From the NCBI GenBank assembly GCA_003175865.1, contig PSRF01000356.1, positions 1 to 19,952 on the forward strand: a DNA stretch of 19,952 nt, written 5' to 3'. How positions within the stretch are numbered: the stretch's first letter is position 1; the number at the start of each line of letters is the position of its first letter. A program made the position numbers and the translations under genes. The DNA comes from Blastocatellia bacterium (GTDB lineage Bacteria; Acidobacteriota; Blastocatellia; Pyrinomonadales; Pyrinomonadaceae). This document shows, piece by piece, positions 15,948 through 19,912 of the stretch. The notes below the pieces were generated by a model. The model was not told the DNA's origin and did no database searches. It saw only the letters and a program-made list of their open reading frames with translations.

Positions 15948-16844
15948 TTACCGCTCCAACGCCGCGCGATCCCAGCCTGCTAAATTAGCTCCTGCCTCGT
16001 ACGTCGACTCACAAAACTCCATCAAAGCCTTTTCAGGATCTGTTGACTGACGTACATCGTCGTAAAGCAATAAAAACTCGTTCAGGTCCTTTGAGTAATA
16101 AGCCTCCTTCGGTCGAAGTGGACCTTCGCTCAATCCATTCGGAGCTGGAGCTGTGTAGGAATAAAAAGCCGGCTTACCAAAGCCGTGTCCTGGCCAAAAA
16201 CCGTGACTGATAACTTCGTGTGAATATGCCTCACGCGTTATTGGGTCGGCGTCAGGACGTGGTGGTGCTGGCCTACCTGAGAAGCGTGTGACTGCAAGAT
16301 CGAAACTGCCCCAGAAAAAATGGACTGGACTGCACTTCCCGATAAAACGGGCACGAAACTCCTGGAGCACATCAGTGGAGCTCCGTAACACTCGCCAGAA
16401 CTTTCGAACGTAATCTGGATCGTACGACGCGTGCTTCTGATCTTCTTCGAACCGGATTGGATCAGGAATTTCAACTGGCATGGTCCAGATGTGAACTTGT
16501 AATCCCAGGTTACTCAATGCGGCCATTGTTTCCTGATAAAACGTTGCGACCGACTTTGGTTCGAGTTTCACTCGTCGTTCGGCCCCGTCACTGCATTTAA
16601 CGACCAAATTGTGATCGATGAAATCAAACTCCATCTCGAAAGTTGTTTCGCCGTAAGGCATCGCAGAAGTTGTCAGTCCCCGAGCCGAAACATAGAGCGG
16701 CACATTCCACCAGTGATTAACCAGCGGCGTTTGTGCTAATCGCACCTTGCCGACGATCTGACTCCACATATGGAGCGTTGCGCGCGTGTCTTCCCACGCG
16801 TCGAGTGGTAAAGCGGGCCACAACGTGGCAGTAGCAGGATTCAT
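15948..16844 (-). CDS. DUF5996-family protein
   Basis: A 298-residue soluble protein that matches what I know of the DUF5996 family along its length. It opens with a tryptophan-rich WPALPLDAWEDTRATLHMWSQIVGKVRL, followed by NHWWNVPLYVSARGLTTSAMPYG, the MEFDFIDH strand, CSPVHFFWGSFDLAVTRFSGR, an EAYSHEVISHGFWPG segment, and a C-terminal ESTYEAGANLAGWDRAALE. The family function is unknown to me. I chose the ATG at 16844 because a strong GGAGG (16850-16854) lies 5 bases upstream; the in-frame TTG at 16856 overlaps that site and would be a false start. The 5' leader of its mRNA contains the 26-bp-arm hairpin at 16859-16966. Confidence 0.88.
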   Translation of the reverse strand: MNPATATLWPALPLDAWEDTRATLHMWSQIVGKVRLAQTPLVNHWWNVPLYVSARGLTTSAMPYGETTFEMEFDFIDHNLVVKCSDGAERRVKLEPKSVATFYQETMAALSNLGLQVHIWTMPVEIPDPIRFEEDQKHASYDPDYVRKFWRVLRSSTDVLQEFRARFIGKCSPVHFFWGSFDLAVTRFSGRPAPPRPDADPITREAYSHEVISHGFWPGHGFGKPAFYSYTAPAPNGLSEGPLRPKEAYYSKDLNEFLLLYDDVRQSTDPEKALMEFCESTYEAGANLAGWDRAALER

Positions 16845-16849
16845 TATGA

Positions 16850-16854
16850 CCTCC
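16850..16854 (-). promoter_or_regulatory. Shine-Dalgarno deciding the DUF5996 start
   Basis: GGAGG five bases before the ATG at 16844. It lies within the upstream in-frame TTG-started extension, which argues against that start. The hairpin repeat arm begins 4 bp further upstream. Confidence 0.75.
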
Positions 16855-16858
16855 AATT

Positions 16859-16966
16859 TGTAGGGGCGGCACTCCGTGGCCGCCCTCTTTTCAATTCTCC
16901 CGTTCGCTTAGAAACATGGTTGAATGATAATTCATATCAAGGCGGCCACGGAGTGCCGCCCCTACA
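16859..16966. repeat. Hairpin repeat element C with perfect 26-bp arms
   Basis: Arms at 16859-16884 and 16941-16966 are perfect inverted copies (outer end TGTAGGGGCGGCACTCC), separated by an AT-rich 56-base interior that includes a TGAAT/ATTCA palindrome. It sits between the divergent DUF5996 gene and the cys unit. One arm falls in the DUF5996 5' UTR next to its Shine-Dalgarno; the other ends one base before the TTGACA -35 box of the cys promoter. The perfect arms suggest recent insertion or active maintenance. Confidence 0.92.
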
Positions 16967-16967
16967 G

Positions 16968-16997
16968 TTGACAGTCGTTTCGAGGAGCCCCTATAGT
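16968..16997 (+). promoter_or_regulatory. Sigma70-type promoter of the cysteine leader and operon
   Basis: A consensus TTGACA (16968-16973) and TATAGT (16992-16997, 5 of 6) are separated by 18 bp. The predicted start is near 17004, about 20 nt before the leader ATG. This is the best promoter match in the window. Confidence 0.8.
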
Positions 16998-17024
16998 TTT
17001 CGCATAATTAATACTTCGTCAACC

Positions 17025-17117
17025 ATGCTGAACACTTGCTCTTGTTGTTATTACTGTCAGTGGTGCTGTTACCGCAGCGCGACCGTAGGGCCGTGTGCAG
17101 CCGGAGGGAGCCAATAA
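17025..17117 (+). CDS. Cysteine-rich leader peptide (attenuator uORF)
   Basis: A 30-codon ORF from an ATG about 20 nt after the predicted transcription start to TAA at 17115-17117. Seven codons are Cys (5, 7, 8, 11, 14, 15, 24), six of them within codons 5-15 (CSCCYYCQWCC). It precedes a terminator and then a cysteine synthase-family gene, the arrangement expected of a leader peptide whose translation rate senses charged tRNA-Cys. No Shine-Dalgarno is seen in the short leader. The frame is open further upstream into the repeat element, but that part lies before the predicted transcript start. Cysteine-responsive poly-Cys uORFs are known from mycobacteria; this would be a separate example with terminator/antiterminator structure. 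Confidence 0.8.
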   Translation: MLNTCSCCYYCQWCCYRSATVGPCAAGGSQ

Positions 17118-17130
17118 GCTAACCACTGAC
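17056..17130 (+). promoter_or_regulatory. Long-range 9-bp pairing of the Cys-codon tract with the post-stop segment
   Basis: GTCAGTGGT (17056-17064, within codons 11-14) is perfectly complementary to ACCACTGAC (17122-17130), which begins five bases after the leader stop codon. Three more pairs (17065-17067 with 17117-17119) can form past a 2-base bulge. This helix crosses the proposed antiterminator helix, so the two should exclude each other. A ribosome on the Cys codons would block it. Confidence 0.6.
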
Positions 17131-17159
17131 TAGCAAAAGATTCACGGTAAACCGGTCGC
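17079..17159 (+). promoter_or_regulatory. Proposed antiterminator helix
   Basis: GCGACCG (17079-17085) pairs with CGGTCGC (17153-17159) and CCGTG (17091-17095) pairs with CACGG (17143-17147), around a symmetric 5x5 internal loop in which one G-U pair can also form. The second strand includes most of the left arm of the terminator, so this helix and the terminator are mutually exclusive. The first strand lies in codons 19-24 of the leader peptide, just downstream of the Cys-codon cluster. Confidence 0.65.
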
Positions 17160-17187
17160 ATTGAAAAAGGCGACCGGTTTTCTTTTC
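17149..17187 (+). terminator. Intrinsic terminator (attenuator) before the cysteine synthase gene
   Basis: A perfect 11-bp stem AAACCGGTCGC (17149-17159) / GCGACCGGTTT (17170-17180) with a 10-base A-rich loop, then TCTTTTC. It lies 31 bp after the leader stop and ends 7 bp before the cysM ATG, so it must be bypassed for the operon to be transcribed from the 16968 promoter. Confidence 0.9.
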
Positions 17188-17194
17188 GGGCAAA

Positions 17195-18142
17195 ATGAAC
17201 ATGGGACTCAGCCCAGCAAAAGACTATCGCCTCAGTTTCACCCGCGGTTCGATCGAAGCACAGATCGGAAACACTCCACTTCTTCGCATCGACATTTTCG
17301 ATAAAGAGTTGCCGAGCGGCGTCGAACTTTTCGCTAAAGCGGAACACCTCAACCCAGGCGGTTCAGTGAAGGACCGCGCGGCGTTATCGATGATTCTTGA
17401 AGGTGAACGCACCGGTAGATTGAAACCTGGGATGACTATCGTCGACGCCACAAGCGGAAACACTGGGATTGCATATGCGATGATCGGTGCCGCGCGTGGC
17501 TATCGCGTGACAGTTTGTTTACCGGCAAACGCGAGTATTTCCCGGAAGGAAATCCTCCGGGCGTATGGCGTCGAAGTAATCGAAACCGATCCTTTAATGG
17601 GTACTGACGGAGCTCAACAAATCGCGCGCGAATTATTCGACTCAGCGCCAACAAAATACTTTTACCCGAATCAGTACTACAACGACGCAAACTGGCTGGC
17701 CCATTACAAAGGTACAGCAAGAGAGATCTGGGAGCAGACTCGAGGTAACGTCACGCATTTCGTTGCCGGGGTTGGTACATCAGGAACGTTTGTTGGTGTC
17801 GTAAGACGACTGCGCGAACTACGTCCCGATCTCCATGCGTTACTAATGCAACCTGATTTACCGCTCCACGGTTTAGAAGGAGTGAAACATCTCGCCAGTG
17901 CAACACACCCCGGCATTTACGACCCCGCACTCGCGGATGATAATGTAGAGGTCACAACGGAGAACGCGCACCTCACAATGCGCCGACTCGCAAGAGAGGC
18001 CGGCATACTCGTTGGCCCCAGCTCGGGCGCGAATGTGTTTGCAGCATATCAAGTCGGGCAAACCTTGAACGCGCCCGCGCAACTGGTCACGATATTGTGT
18101 GATGGCGGTGAACGTTACGCTCGAGAACACATTTTCGGTTAG
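17195..18142 (+). CDS. cysM: Cysteine synthase / CBS-family PLP enzyme, CysM-like
   Basis: A fold-type II PLP enzyme of 315 residues that makes cysteine (or cystathionine) by beta-replacement. Visible signatures are NPGGSVKDRAA with PLP lysine K59, the substrate loop ATSGNTG (85-91), the phosphate-binding GVGTSGTF, and the C-terminal GPSSGAN segment. Parts such as THFVAGVGTSGT, EGVKHLASATHPGIYDP and REAGILVGPSSGA resemble, from memory, the CysO-dependent, O-phosphoserine-using CysM of Mycobacterium tuberculosis. NQYYNDANWLAHY also recalls cystathionine beta-synthases. There is no C-terminal CBS regulatory domain. ATG at 17195 has a weak ribosome site and follows the attenuator directly. A gene of the gamma-family follows after 9 bp. 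The acceptor and donor substrates are unresolved. Confidence 0.88.
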   Translation: MNMGLSPAKDYRLSFTRGSIEAQIGNTPLLRIDIFDKELPSGVELFAKAEHLNPGGSVKDRAALSMILEGERTGRLKPGMTIVDATSGNTGIAYAMIGAARGYRVTVCLPANASISRKEILRAYGVEVIETDPLMGTDGAQQIARELFDSAPTKYFYPNQYYNDANWLAHYKGTAREIWEQTRGNVTHFVAGVGTSGTFVGVVRRLRELRPDLHALLMQPDLPLHGLEGVKHLASATHPGIYDPALADDNVEVTTENAHLTMRRLAREAGILVGPSSGANVFAAYQVGQTLNAPAQLVTILCDGGERYAREHIFG

Positions 18143-18151
18143 TTAACTCCC

Positions 18152-19360
18152 ATGACTGACGATAAAAACAAATTCGACCTTACGACGCAGCTGGTACACG
18201 CCGGAAAGGAACTACGCGTCGATGACTTCAAACCCGTCACTACTCCAATCTACCCGAGCGTTACGTTTACCTATGGCTCGATGGAGGAGATTGATAAGGT
18301 TTTCGGCGGCGAGAAGAAAGGCTACATTTATACCCGCCACGGAAATCCGACGCTTGCTTCGCTGGAAGAAGCGCTTCGAGTCATCGAGGGCGGTGCGTTT
18401 GCCTGTGTTTACTCAACCGGAATGGCGGCATTACACGCGGCACTATTTGCATGTGAACTACAACCTGGGGCAACTGTTCTCGCTTCGCAAGATCTCTACG
18501 GTGCAACAACTAATCTGTTGCTAAACGTGTTTGGATCGTTTGGCGTCAAAACAGTGTTCGTTGACTTCAATGATCTGGACACGGTCCGTGCACGTGCGCT
18601 TGAACTTAAGCCAAGAGTTTTAATTGCCGAAACAATCTCAAATCCACTGCTAAAAGTCTGCGACATCGAGGCCACCGCAGAAATCGCACATGCAGCGGGC
18701 GCCAGGTTGATTGTCGACAATACCTTTGCATCACCTTATCTCTGCCAACCCCTGAAGTTTGGTGCGGATCTCGTTGTTCATAGTGCGACCAAGTATCTTG
18801 GCGGCCATGGCGACGTGATGGGTGGCGTTGTCGTTTCACGTGACGAAATGGACAGCCTCGCATTGGTTGGAGTGATGAAGTTGGTTGGTGGTGTACTCGG
18901 CGTTTGGGAAGCTCACGAGATCCGTCGAGGTATGAAGACGTTGTCGCTCCGCATTGAACGACAGTGTGAAAATGCGCTGTGGATTGCTGAACATTTGCAA
19001 CGCGATGCACGCGTGGGACGGGTTTACTATCCAGGTTTTGTGTTGCGCGATGTTGCGAATCCAGCGCGCCGAATGTTGCGTTCACCGTATTCCGGTGCGC
19101 TCGTCACAATAGAACTGAGCAATAACACGCGCGAAGCTGCTTTTCGATTCATGGATGCTTTGCATTTATGTGTTCGATCGACAAGTCTTGGAGATGTGTT
19201 TACGAGTGTGCTGCATCCTGCGACAGCGTCGCATCGTGACCTGGTACCGGGTCGCAGGAAAGAACTTGGGATAACAGACGGATTGATTCGTATTTCAGTA
19301 GGTATTGAGAGTGTCACGGACATCATCGGCGATATCGAACAAGCGCTGGATGAAATTTGA
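18152..19360 (+). CDS. Cys/Met metabolism PLP enzyme (cystathionine gamma-lyase/synthase family)
   Basis: A 402-residue fold-type I PLP enzyme of the gamma-family (cystathionine gamma-lyase, cystathionine gamma-synthase, O-acetylhomoserine sulfhydrylase, methionine gamma-lyase). Signatures are PVTTPIYPSVTF, Y60-TRHGNPT, the STGMAALHAAL loop, VDNTFASPYLCQP with PLP-contacting D189, HSATKYLGGHGD with the Schiff-base lysine K214, and the C-terminal SLGDVFTSVLHPATASH and RISVGIE. Length is typical. The ATG at 18152 lies 9 bp after the cysM-like stop without a clear Shine-Dalgarno, so it is very likely co-transcribed. With a CBS-type partner it would act as cystathionine gamma-lyase in reverse transsulfuration; the exact reaction cannot be read from sequence. 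Confidence 0.9.
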   Translation: MTDDKNKFDLTTQLVHAGKELRVDDFKPVTTPIYPSVTFTYGSMEEIDKVFGGEKKGYIYTRHGNPTLASLEEALRVIEGGAFACVYSTGMAALHAALFACELQPGATVLASQDLYGATTNLLLNVFGSFGVKTVFVDFNDLDTVRARALELKPRVLIAETISNPLLKVCDIEATAEIAHAAGARLIVDNTFASPYLCQPLKFGADLVVHSATKYLGGHGDVMGGVVVSRDEMDSLALVGVMKLVGGVLGVWEAHEIRRGMKTLSLRIERQCENALWIAEHLQRDARVGRVYYPGFVLRDVANPARRMLRSPYSGALVTIELSNNTREAAFRFMDALHLCVRSTSLGDVFTSVLHPATASHRDLVPGRRKELGITDGLIRISVGIESVTDIIGDIEQALDEI

Positions 19361-19477: not shown

Positions 19478-19912
19478 TTGATTCGAGTGACCGAACAACT
19501 GATAGACCAGATTCGCGAGCACGGGCGCCGCGATTATCCGTACGAATGTTGTGGATTGCTGATCGGTAAATTCGAAAGCGACGGCCGTAAGACAGTGCTT
19601 GAGACTTACGCTATTTCAAATGCACGTGAAGACAGCGCGAAGCGAAATAGGTTTTTGATCACGCCGGAGGAATTGATTAAGGGTGAGCGATACGTAGCTT
19701 CGAAAGGGTTGGACATTGTTGGTTTCTATCACTCTCATCCAGATTCGCCGGCGAGGCCCTCGCAGTACGATCTTGAGCATGCGTGGCCAACTTATTCGTA
19801 CATCATCGTCTCAAGTAATAACGAAGGAACCACTGATCTGTTTTCATGGGAACAGGAGTCCGATCGGTCGAAGTTCAATGAAGAACAAATCGAGCTGTCC
19901 GATAAGCTTTAG
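19478..19912 (+). CDS. JAMM/MPN metallopeptidase (M67 family), Mec-like
   Basis: A 144-residue stand-alone JAMM (Mov34/MPN/PAD-1) zinc isopeptidase. The metal site is complete: E23 in YPYECCGLLIG, H85 and H87 in FYHSHP, and D98 in PSQYD, giving HxH-x10-D. Length and layout match the mycobacterial Mec+ peptidase, which releases cysteine from the CysO sulfur-carrier protein after CysM has built it there. Being on the same strand as a CysM-like enzyme supports that role here, by inference. The start is a TTG at 19478 with AGAGG seven bases upstream; an ATG four bases earlier is out of frame. It may share the cys transcript, although the hairpin element in the 117-bp gap could attenuate read-through. 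A carrier (ThiS/MoaD-like) or E1-like gene might follow beyond the window. Confidence 0.87.
   Translation: MIRVTEQLIDQIREHGRRDYPYECCGLLIGKFESDGRKTVLETYAISNAREDSAKRNRFLITPEELIKGERYVASKGLDIVGFYHSHPDSPARPSQYDLEHAWPTYSYIIVSSNNEGTTDLFSWEQESDRSKFNEEQIELSDKL

Follow-up and report, generated by a model that had tools for sequence, protein, structure and literature searches.

The cysteine-rich leader and its setting

The stretch of DNA analysed here, called the window, covers 19,952 nucleotides of contig PSRF01000356.1 from a Blastocatellia bacterium of the Pyrinomonadaceae (assembly GCA_003175865.1). Towards its end lies an operon for cysteine biosynthesis that starts with a cysM-like cysteine synthase gene. 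A short open reading frame (ORF) crowded with cysteine codons, the leader, stands between the promoter and this gene and is followed by an intrinsic terminator (Table 1). As argued below, this leader very probably belongs to a classical attenuator in which the translating ribosome would sense charged tRNA-Cys and decide on transcription of the operon. Loci and genomes of relatives carry our own numbers (L and G), and families of the class are designated f.

The translation of the leader is MLNTCSCCYYCQWCCYRSATVGPCAAGGSQ. Six of its Cys residues fall within codons 5-15 (CSCCYYCQWCC), and the seventh is codon 24. Among the ATG ORFs of 8-60 amino acids on both strands of the window, the leader alone reaches four or more Cys per 12 residues. 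When the 340 nt upstream of cysM were shuffled 20000 times with dinucleotides preserved, at least four Cys per 12 residues arose in 45 shuffles, five in 4 and six in none. The peptide matches no NCBIfam family. A search of the own genome for four consecutive Cys codons was too noisy: it matched 56 times, and the reversed pattern 42 times.

The promoter is the only promoter-like match in 16800-17300, where shuffles give 0.3, and in each of the 12 other loci of the alignment TTGAC and TATAGT can be read 5′ of the leader. The predicted transcription start, about 7 nt 3′ of the -10 box, would give the RNA about 21 nt ahead of the ATG. The terminator is a 10-bp G+C-rich hairpin with arms AACCGGTCGC (17150-17159) and GCGACCGGTT (17170-17179), a loop of 10 and the tail TTCTTTTC; it ends 7 nt before the cysM-like gene. 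Its absence from the consensus scan is presumably due to the restriction of that scan to loops of 3-8. The product of the cysM-like gene matches TIGR01138 with an E value of 4e-98 and 328.5 bits, below the model cutoff of 394.2; it contains the Pfam PALP domain and its best solved relative is cysteine synthase B (2bhs). Thus an ORF with Cys codons between promoter and cysM, and an intrinsic terminator before the first gene, are both present, as expected of an attenuator. A sequence-only reading of the window had proposed a 30-codon ORF with six Cys in 11 codons, a density very unlikely by chance, a promoter about 20 nt ahead of it and a terminator and CysM-like gene behind it. The ORF is read directly from the sequence, and our results bear out the other points. 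The same reading took the ORF for a ribosome-stalling sensor of charged tRNA-Cys, an interpretation that the comparisons below support.

Table 1. Positions of the elements of the leader region and of the operon (window coordinates, except for the last row, which refers to loci of two relatives).
Feature	Position	Strand	Basis
Sigma-70-type promoter, TTGACA-18-TATAGT	16968..16997	+	11/12 consensus matches
Cys-rich leader ORF, 30 codons plus stop, ATG to TAA	17025..17117	+	conserved in relatives
Putative regulatory Cys codons (5, 7, 8, 11, 14, 15)	17037..17069	+	role predicted from folds
Segment 1, GTCAGTGGT, inside the Cys cluster	17056..17064	+	9-nt perfect complement of 17122-17130 (inverted repeat I9)
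Candidate antiterminator 5′ arm, GCGACCG, inside the leader ORF	17079..17085	+	inverted repeat I14, fold; pairing conserved
Second arm of the candidate antiterminator, GCCGTG	17090..17095	+	pairs with 17143-17148 in fold
Partner of segment 1, ACCACTGAC, directly 3′ of the leader stop	17122..17130	+	inverted repeat I9
Partner of 17090-17095, CACGGT	17143..17148	+	fold
Intrinsic terminator, hairpin and T-rich tail	17150..17187	+	inverted repeat I3, folding
Candidate antiterminator 3′ arm and terminator 5′ arm, CGGTCGC	17153..17159	+	inverted repeat, fold
cysM-like cysteine synthase gene	17195..18142	+	TIGR01138, Pfam PALP, structure relative
Cys/Met metabolism pyridoxal phosphate (PLP)-dependent enzyme (cystathionine gamma-synthase / methionine gamma-lyase type)	18152..19360	+	family match
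Prok-JAB (JAMM) hydrolase, TTG start	19478..19912	+	Pfam; Mec-like by context
ThiS-ThiF-rhodanese fusion	L212:5056-6504; L215:3992-5473	- (both)	Pfam

Conservation and distribution of the leader

The family was surveyed in 119 genomes, the own one included, of which 48 carry a total of 49 cysM orthologs (identity at least 57%); G085, whose ortholog shows 57% identity and is cut at the contig start, was dropped. In 35 loci, including the window, cysM comes first and its upstream region is present. The 14 others were set aside: two lie at contig edges (L028, L051), six have cysM behind cgs and six behind the peroxiredoxin gene prx. Loci were sorted by reading; the position behind cgs was assigned by tblastn (L023, L032, L053, L056) or from the sequence itself (L018, L022).

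A short Cys-rich ORF upstream of cysM orthologs, which the sequence-only reading had put forward as a check, is widespread in these 35 loci. ATG ORFs with at least three Cys per 12 residues occur in 28 of them, with at least four in 25 and with at least five in 23, where shuffles predict 1.62, 0.17 and 0.01, respectively. By reading, CC or CxC is kept in 33/35. Leaders are poor in Cys at L030, L031 and L063. In five pairs of leaders, Cys is retained in 39 of the 43 columns that hold it in either row, versus 76/112 for other residues (Fisher p 0.004). The length, order and C-terminal half of the peptides differ between genera. Counting non-Cys codons over all leaders, Tyr takes up 35/220 inside the Cys clusters versus 17/582 outside. 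Tyr and Trp runs precede CAC in the leaders of L021, L024, L033 and L062, the last with YYYYYWCAC. At L065 (genome G016), a deletion of about 90 nt takes out the leader ORF and retains promoter and terminator; it is either a natural leader-less allele or an assembly fault.

The leader is also specific to its place. Both strands of the 49 family loci (354068 bases) contain 25 ATG ORFs with at least five Cys per 12 residues: the 23 leaders, a leader before prx at L057 and one other ORF on the opposite strand of L010. A profile built from 13 leaders (12 of the genus and one of a sister genus) and run against the 16 genomes of the genus found 12 places with E values of at most 8.4e-8, one per genome and all at cysM loci. 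The four genomes of the genus that have no cysM ortholog (75-95% complete) gave best E values of only 0.03-0.25. Beyond the 12 places there were only weak matches, not inspected singly, and no convincing second leader site in the genus. As the 12 matching genomes are themselves rows of the profile, independent evidence comes only from these negatives and from the absence of second sites.

A second profile, from 11 other leaders, matched in 14 of the 119 family genomes: at ten of its own rows (the row L034 was missed), at G049 and at L230, L232 and L233. The G049 match, outside the profile rows, is a held-out case: a contig-end leader, MNIFQPKHCTCRYCCNCACPAYRLNVCVRI, lies 3′ of a TTGACA promoter on a contig that stops in an apparent terminator, and the separate contig with cysM is cut upstream. 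The three remaining matches fall within longer frames or straddle them and were rejected as probable chance.

Outside the family, 33 loci of the class were examined and 16 have Cys-rich leader candidates, namely all those of f5 (3/3), f4 (6/6) and f7 (7/7). A hairpin and T run follow the candidate in f4 and f5 (by eye at L123), and in f7 none does. No leader was judged present in the 17 others (nine in f2, six in f9, one each in f3 and f8). ORFs of L106, L110, L113 and L122 pass a rule of three Cys and were judged to be chance because of a non-ATG start, their distance or the lack of a terminator.

At L112, L114, L116 and L124 of f7, a terminator-less Cys-rich upstream ORF (uORF) extends over the predicted cysM start in a different frame, so that its Cys run coincides with CysM codons such as those for AVVV. 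These overlapping uORFs are a possible dual-coding, translation-level cysteine sensor, as far as their sequence tells. At L111, L119, L121 and L124, a uORF ending in CCCR lies about 50-60 nt before prx, and by reading a small hairpin spans its stop (GCCGG/CCGGC at L119, L121 and L124, GTCGG/CCGAC at L111).

Beyond the class, 40 of the 87 matching genomes, chosen to span families, were fetched, and non-ATG starts were allowed. At least four Cys per 12 residues were found upstream of cysM in 6/40 versus 0.43 expected (L172, L175, L182, L183, L190 and L194). L172 and L183 are the clearest and L194 is doubtful. A scan of named contigs brought up 15 remote loci, which were left out.

Alternative pairings and competing explanations

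The GCGACCG of the leader, just 3′ of the Cys cluster, is complementary to the 5′ arm of the terminator. Starting from what is read in the sequence, that is, the ORF, its conservation, the promoter, the terminator and this complementarity, we infer translation, stalling, readthrough and the direction of regulation as follows. RNA polymerase would start near 17004 and a ribosome would begin the 30-codon leader. With ample Cys-tRNA, it would reach the stop codon and cover 17079-17085; the terminator would then form and transcription would stop before cysM. When Cys-tRNA is short, the ribosome would wait at Cys5-Cys14, and 17079-17085 and 17090-17095 would be free to pair with the emerging 17153-17159 and 17143-17148. 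This antiterminator pairing would deprive the terminator of its 5′ arm and the operon would be transcribed.

Folding predictions agree with this scheme for RNA that is still growing. We assumed that the ribosome masks all RNA up to 12 nt past its A site and let the unfinished RNA end at 17166. A ribosome at Cys8, 11 or 14 then leaves the full 7-bp antiterminator helix, one at Cys5 or 7 five of its pairs, one at Cys15 four, and one at Cys24 or the stop codon none. Comparison of relatives points the same way. A terminator lies between leader and gene in 32/34 loci by a loose rule (L065 is omitted; the two negatives are L007, although its terminator is visible, and L026, which has no T tail). A strict rule gives 31/34, versus 0.58 in shuffles. 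Over 13 loci, those of the genus and L009, the antiterminator helix is paired in 91.5% of cells versus 19-36% when slid. When arms were swapped among 20 representatives, pairing was poorer than between own arms (permutation p 0.0004). Moreover, the frame of the element GCGAYCG differs between the two leader groups of the genus, giving S-A-T in that of the window and R-D-R in the other. This use of two frames favours selection on RNA rather than on peptide at that element.

Several observations weigh against attenuation by this route. Wherever the ribosome mask is placed, the minimum-energy fold of the full-length RNA contains the terminator, so that readthrough would require the antiterminator to prevail during transcription. 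With no ribosome, the full RNA forms the hairpin between segment 1 and its partner plus the terminator, and the unfinished RNA forms the antiterminator, which leaves the untranslated state ambiguous. In the 13 loci, no antiterminator pair is changed on both sides and the letter-shuffle control of the pairing was uninformative. Pairing of leader and terminator arm exceeds 95% of shuffles in only 16/32 loci; in 5/20 representatives (L020, L033, L050, L054, L058), own arms are no better than half of the swaps and there is no antiterminator partner to name. The Cys cluster is absent from 2/35 loci, L065 and L030, the latter having scattered Cys only. Codon changes in the five leader pairs (20, 24 and 23 by position) show no third-position excess. 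Finally, where cysM is not first, a leader precedes the first gene of the operon in only one of ten cases examined. That one, L138, is in the same place as L057, with MCACACTCCYLAVSERHEDAS upstream of prx.

The best placed of the competing explanations takes the hairpin before cysM as incidental and has the Cys codons work through translational coupling or Rho-dependent termination, which has been proposed for mycobacterial Cys uORFs. Family f7 of the same class lends it some weight by its terminator-less Cys uORFs, which precede prx or overlap the cysM start. So do the mycobacterial cys uORFs, for which no terminator was found (PMC1262725). Yet a terminator 3′ of the leader in nearly all loci of the family, together with its complement carried by the leader, makes this unlikely for the window.

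The Tyr codons suggest a variant of the sensor. In E. coli, the tRNAs for U-initial codons bear a modification that contains sulfur, ms2i6A37. If under-thiolated tRNAs decode slowly, the leader could respond to tRNA thiolation as well as to cysteine charging, an idea that we consider a long shot. The Tyr enrichment may have a plainer cause, given that a single transition separates TAY from TGY and that the loci are related.

It is very unlikely that the leader peptide is functional in itself, say as a small peptide that binds metal or is modified. Its high Cys density and the retention of the ORF in 33/35 loci would suit such a role, against which stand the variation between genera in length, order and C-terminal half, the RNA element read in different frames, the absence of an NCBIfam family and the position between promoter and terminator. 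Still less credit can be given to a riboswitch or T-box governing the terminator with the ORF as a bystander. A terminator before a sulfur operon is a usual site of a SAM riboswitch or T-box, but the window has no Rfam match at gathering scores, the search of 16900-17260 returned only mir-34 (E 0.98) and DnaX (E 4.6), the fold z-score is only -1.68, and the ORF fills 93 of the about 146 nt between RNA start and terminator. That the leader is a chance ORF, as the few Cys at L030, L031 and L063 could suggest, is next to impossible given the shuffles of the window and the 23/35 family loci versus 0.01 expected.

The operon, known systems and significance

Ribosome-mediated attenuation would act on an operon whose gene set resembles, on analysis of its domains, a carrier-protein route to cysteine. 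The contig stops after the Prok-JAB gene. Downstream regions were listed for eight relatives (L212-L219). All eight have a JAMM gene 3′ of cysM (in L213 and L218 it is listed short, from an inner ATG), followed by a protein of 480-512 amino acids with a similar ThiS-like start. The PLP enzyme lies between cysM and JAMM in L213, L215 and L216 and 5′ of cysM in L218. In both proteins tested, those of L212 and L215, Pfam finds ThiS, ThiF and rhodanese domains in one chain. This fusion was not found in the own genome, which is 62% complete. In the mycobacterial Mec-CysO-CysM route, cysteine is assembled on a sulfur carrier protein. The set described here is alike in its CysM-type synthase, JAMM hydrolase and ThiS-type carrier, and differs in that the carrier of the relatives is fused to ThiF and rhodanese, its gene lying beyond the contig end of the window. 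Further synthase-like genes of the own genome are found at L002-L005. Just 5′ of the leader promoter, a 41-nt inverted repeat (16859-16899 / 16926-16966, 85% complementary) looks like a repeated intergenic element; the divergent neighbour (15948-16856, minus strand) encodes a DUF5996 protein (Pfam PF19459).

In the trp and his attenuators of enterobacteria, regulatory codons lie over segment 1, hairpins compete and termination is intrinsic. The window leader shares the codons over segment 1 and the intrinsic terminator, and its predicted hairpins would compete as well. Amino acid, operon and lineage differ, and here the candidate antiterminator arm is inside the leader ORF. Mycobacterial Cys ORFs are reportedly leaderless, going by the title of a 2020 study by Canestrari et al. 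The mycobacterial polycysteine uORFs of Seliverstov et al. 2005 (PMC1262725) likewise are short ORFs with runs of Cys codons, located upstream of cysteine genes; their runs lie close to the stop, and no terminator was found. The window leader is unlike them in its cluster at codons 5-15 of 30, the terminator that follows and the predicted 5′ untranslated region of about 21 nt. Their Cys run near the stop codon is shared by f7 relatives such as L114 and L121.

Closer still is the uORFC-8-2 motif before cysS in Rhodobacterales, a predicted Cys attenuator with an intrinsic terminator, interpreted by its authors as ribosome-mediated attenuation (PMC8632094; available in part). It too is a short ORF with Cys codons, which lie in its first stem, the last stem being followed by a U run. 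According to the same source, it belongs to a cysteinyl-tRNA synthetase gene of Alphaproteobacteria and its tandem Cys are usually codons 14-15, whereas the window leader packs six Cys into 11 codons and precedes a cysteine biosynthesis operon, in another lineage. Codons 14-15 are also Cys-Cys in the window, a likeness drawn from the published description only. The sequence-only reading had rightly named poly-Cys uORFs as known in mycobacteria; its remark on novelty must be narrowed by this published Rhodobacterales attenuator. In the accessible parts of PMC1262725, PMC2965389, PMC4833913, PMC8632094, PMC13236596, PMC9094748 and PMC8079986, we found neither a cysteine biosynthesis operon controlled by a cysteine attenuator that has an intrinsic terminator nor such an attenuator from Acidobacteria, in a search that did not reach most subscription papers (e.g. 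Lopatovskaya et al. 2010); PMC10219788 gave no hits. Most likely, the leader belongs to a classical attenuator that senses Cys-tRNA-Cys; judged by these papers it is new in its operon and lineage, its principle being known.

For an uncultured lineage, the proposed attenuation supplies a rule of cysteine regulation that is specific and can be tested. The distribution of leaders suggests that one sensor, the cysteine-codon leader, is joined to different outputs within one class: in f1 a terminator and candidate antiterminator, in f4 and f5 terminators, and in f7 uORFs that have no terminator and lie upstream of the start codon or overlap it. How outputs are exchanged while the sensor stays the same can thereby be studied.
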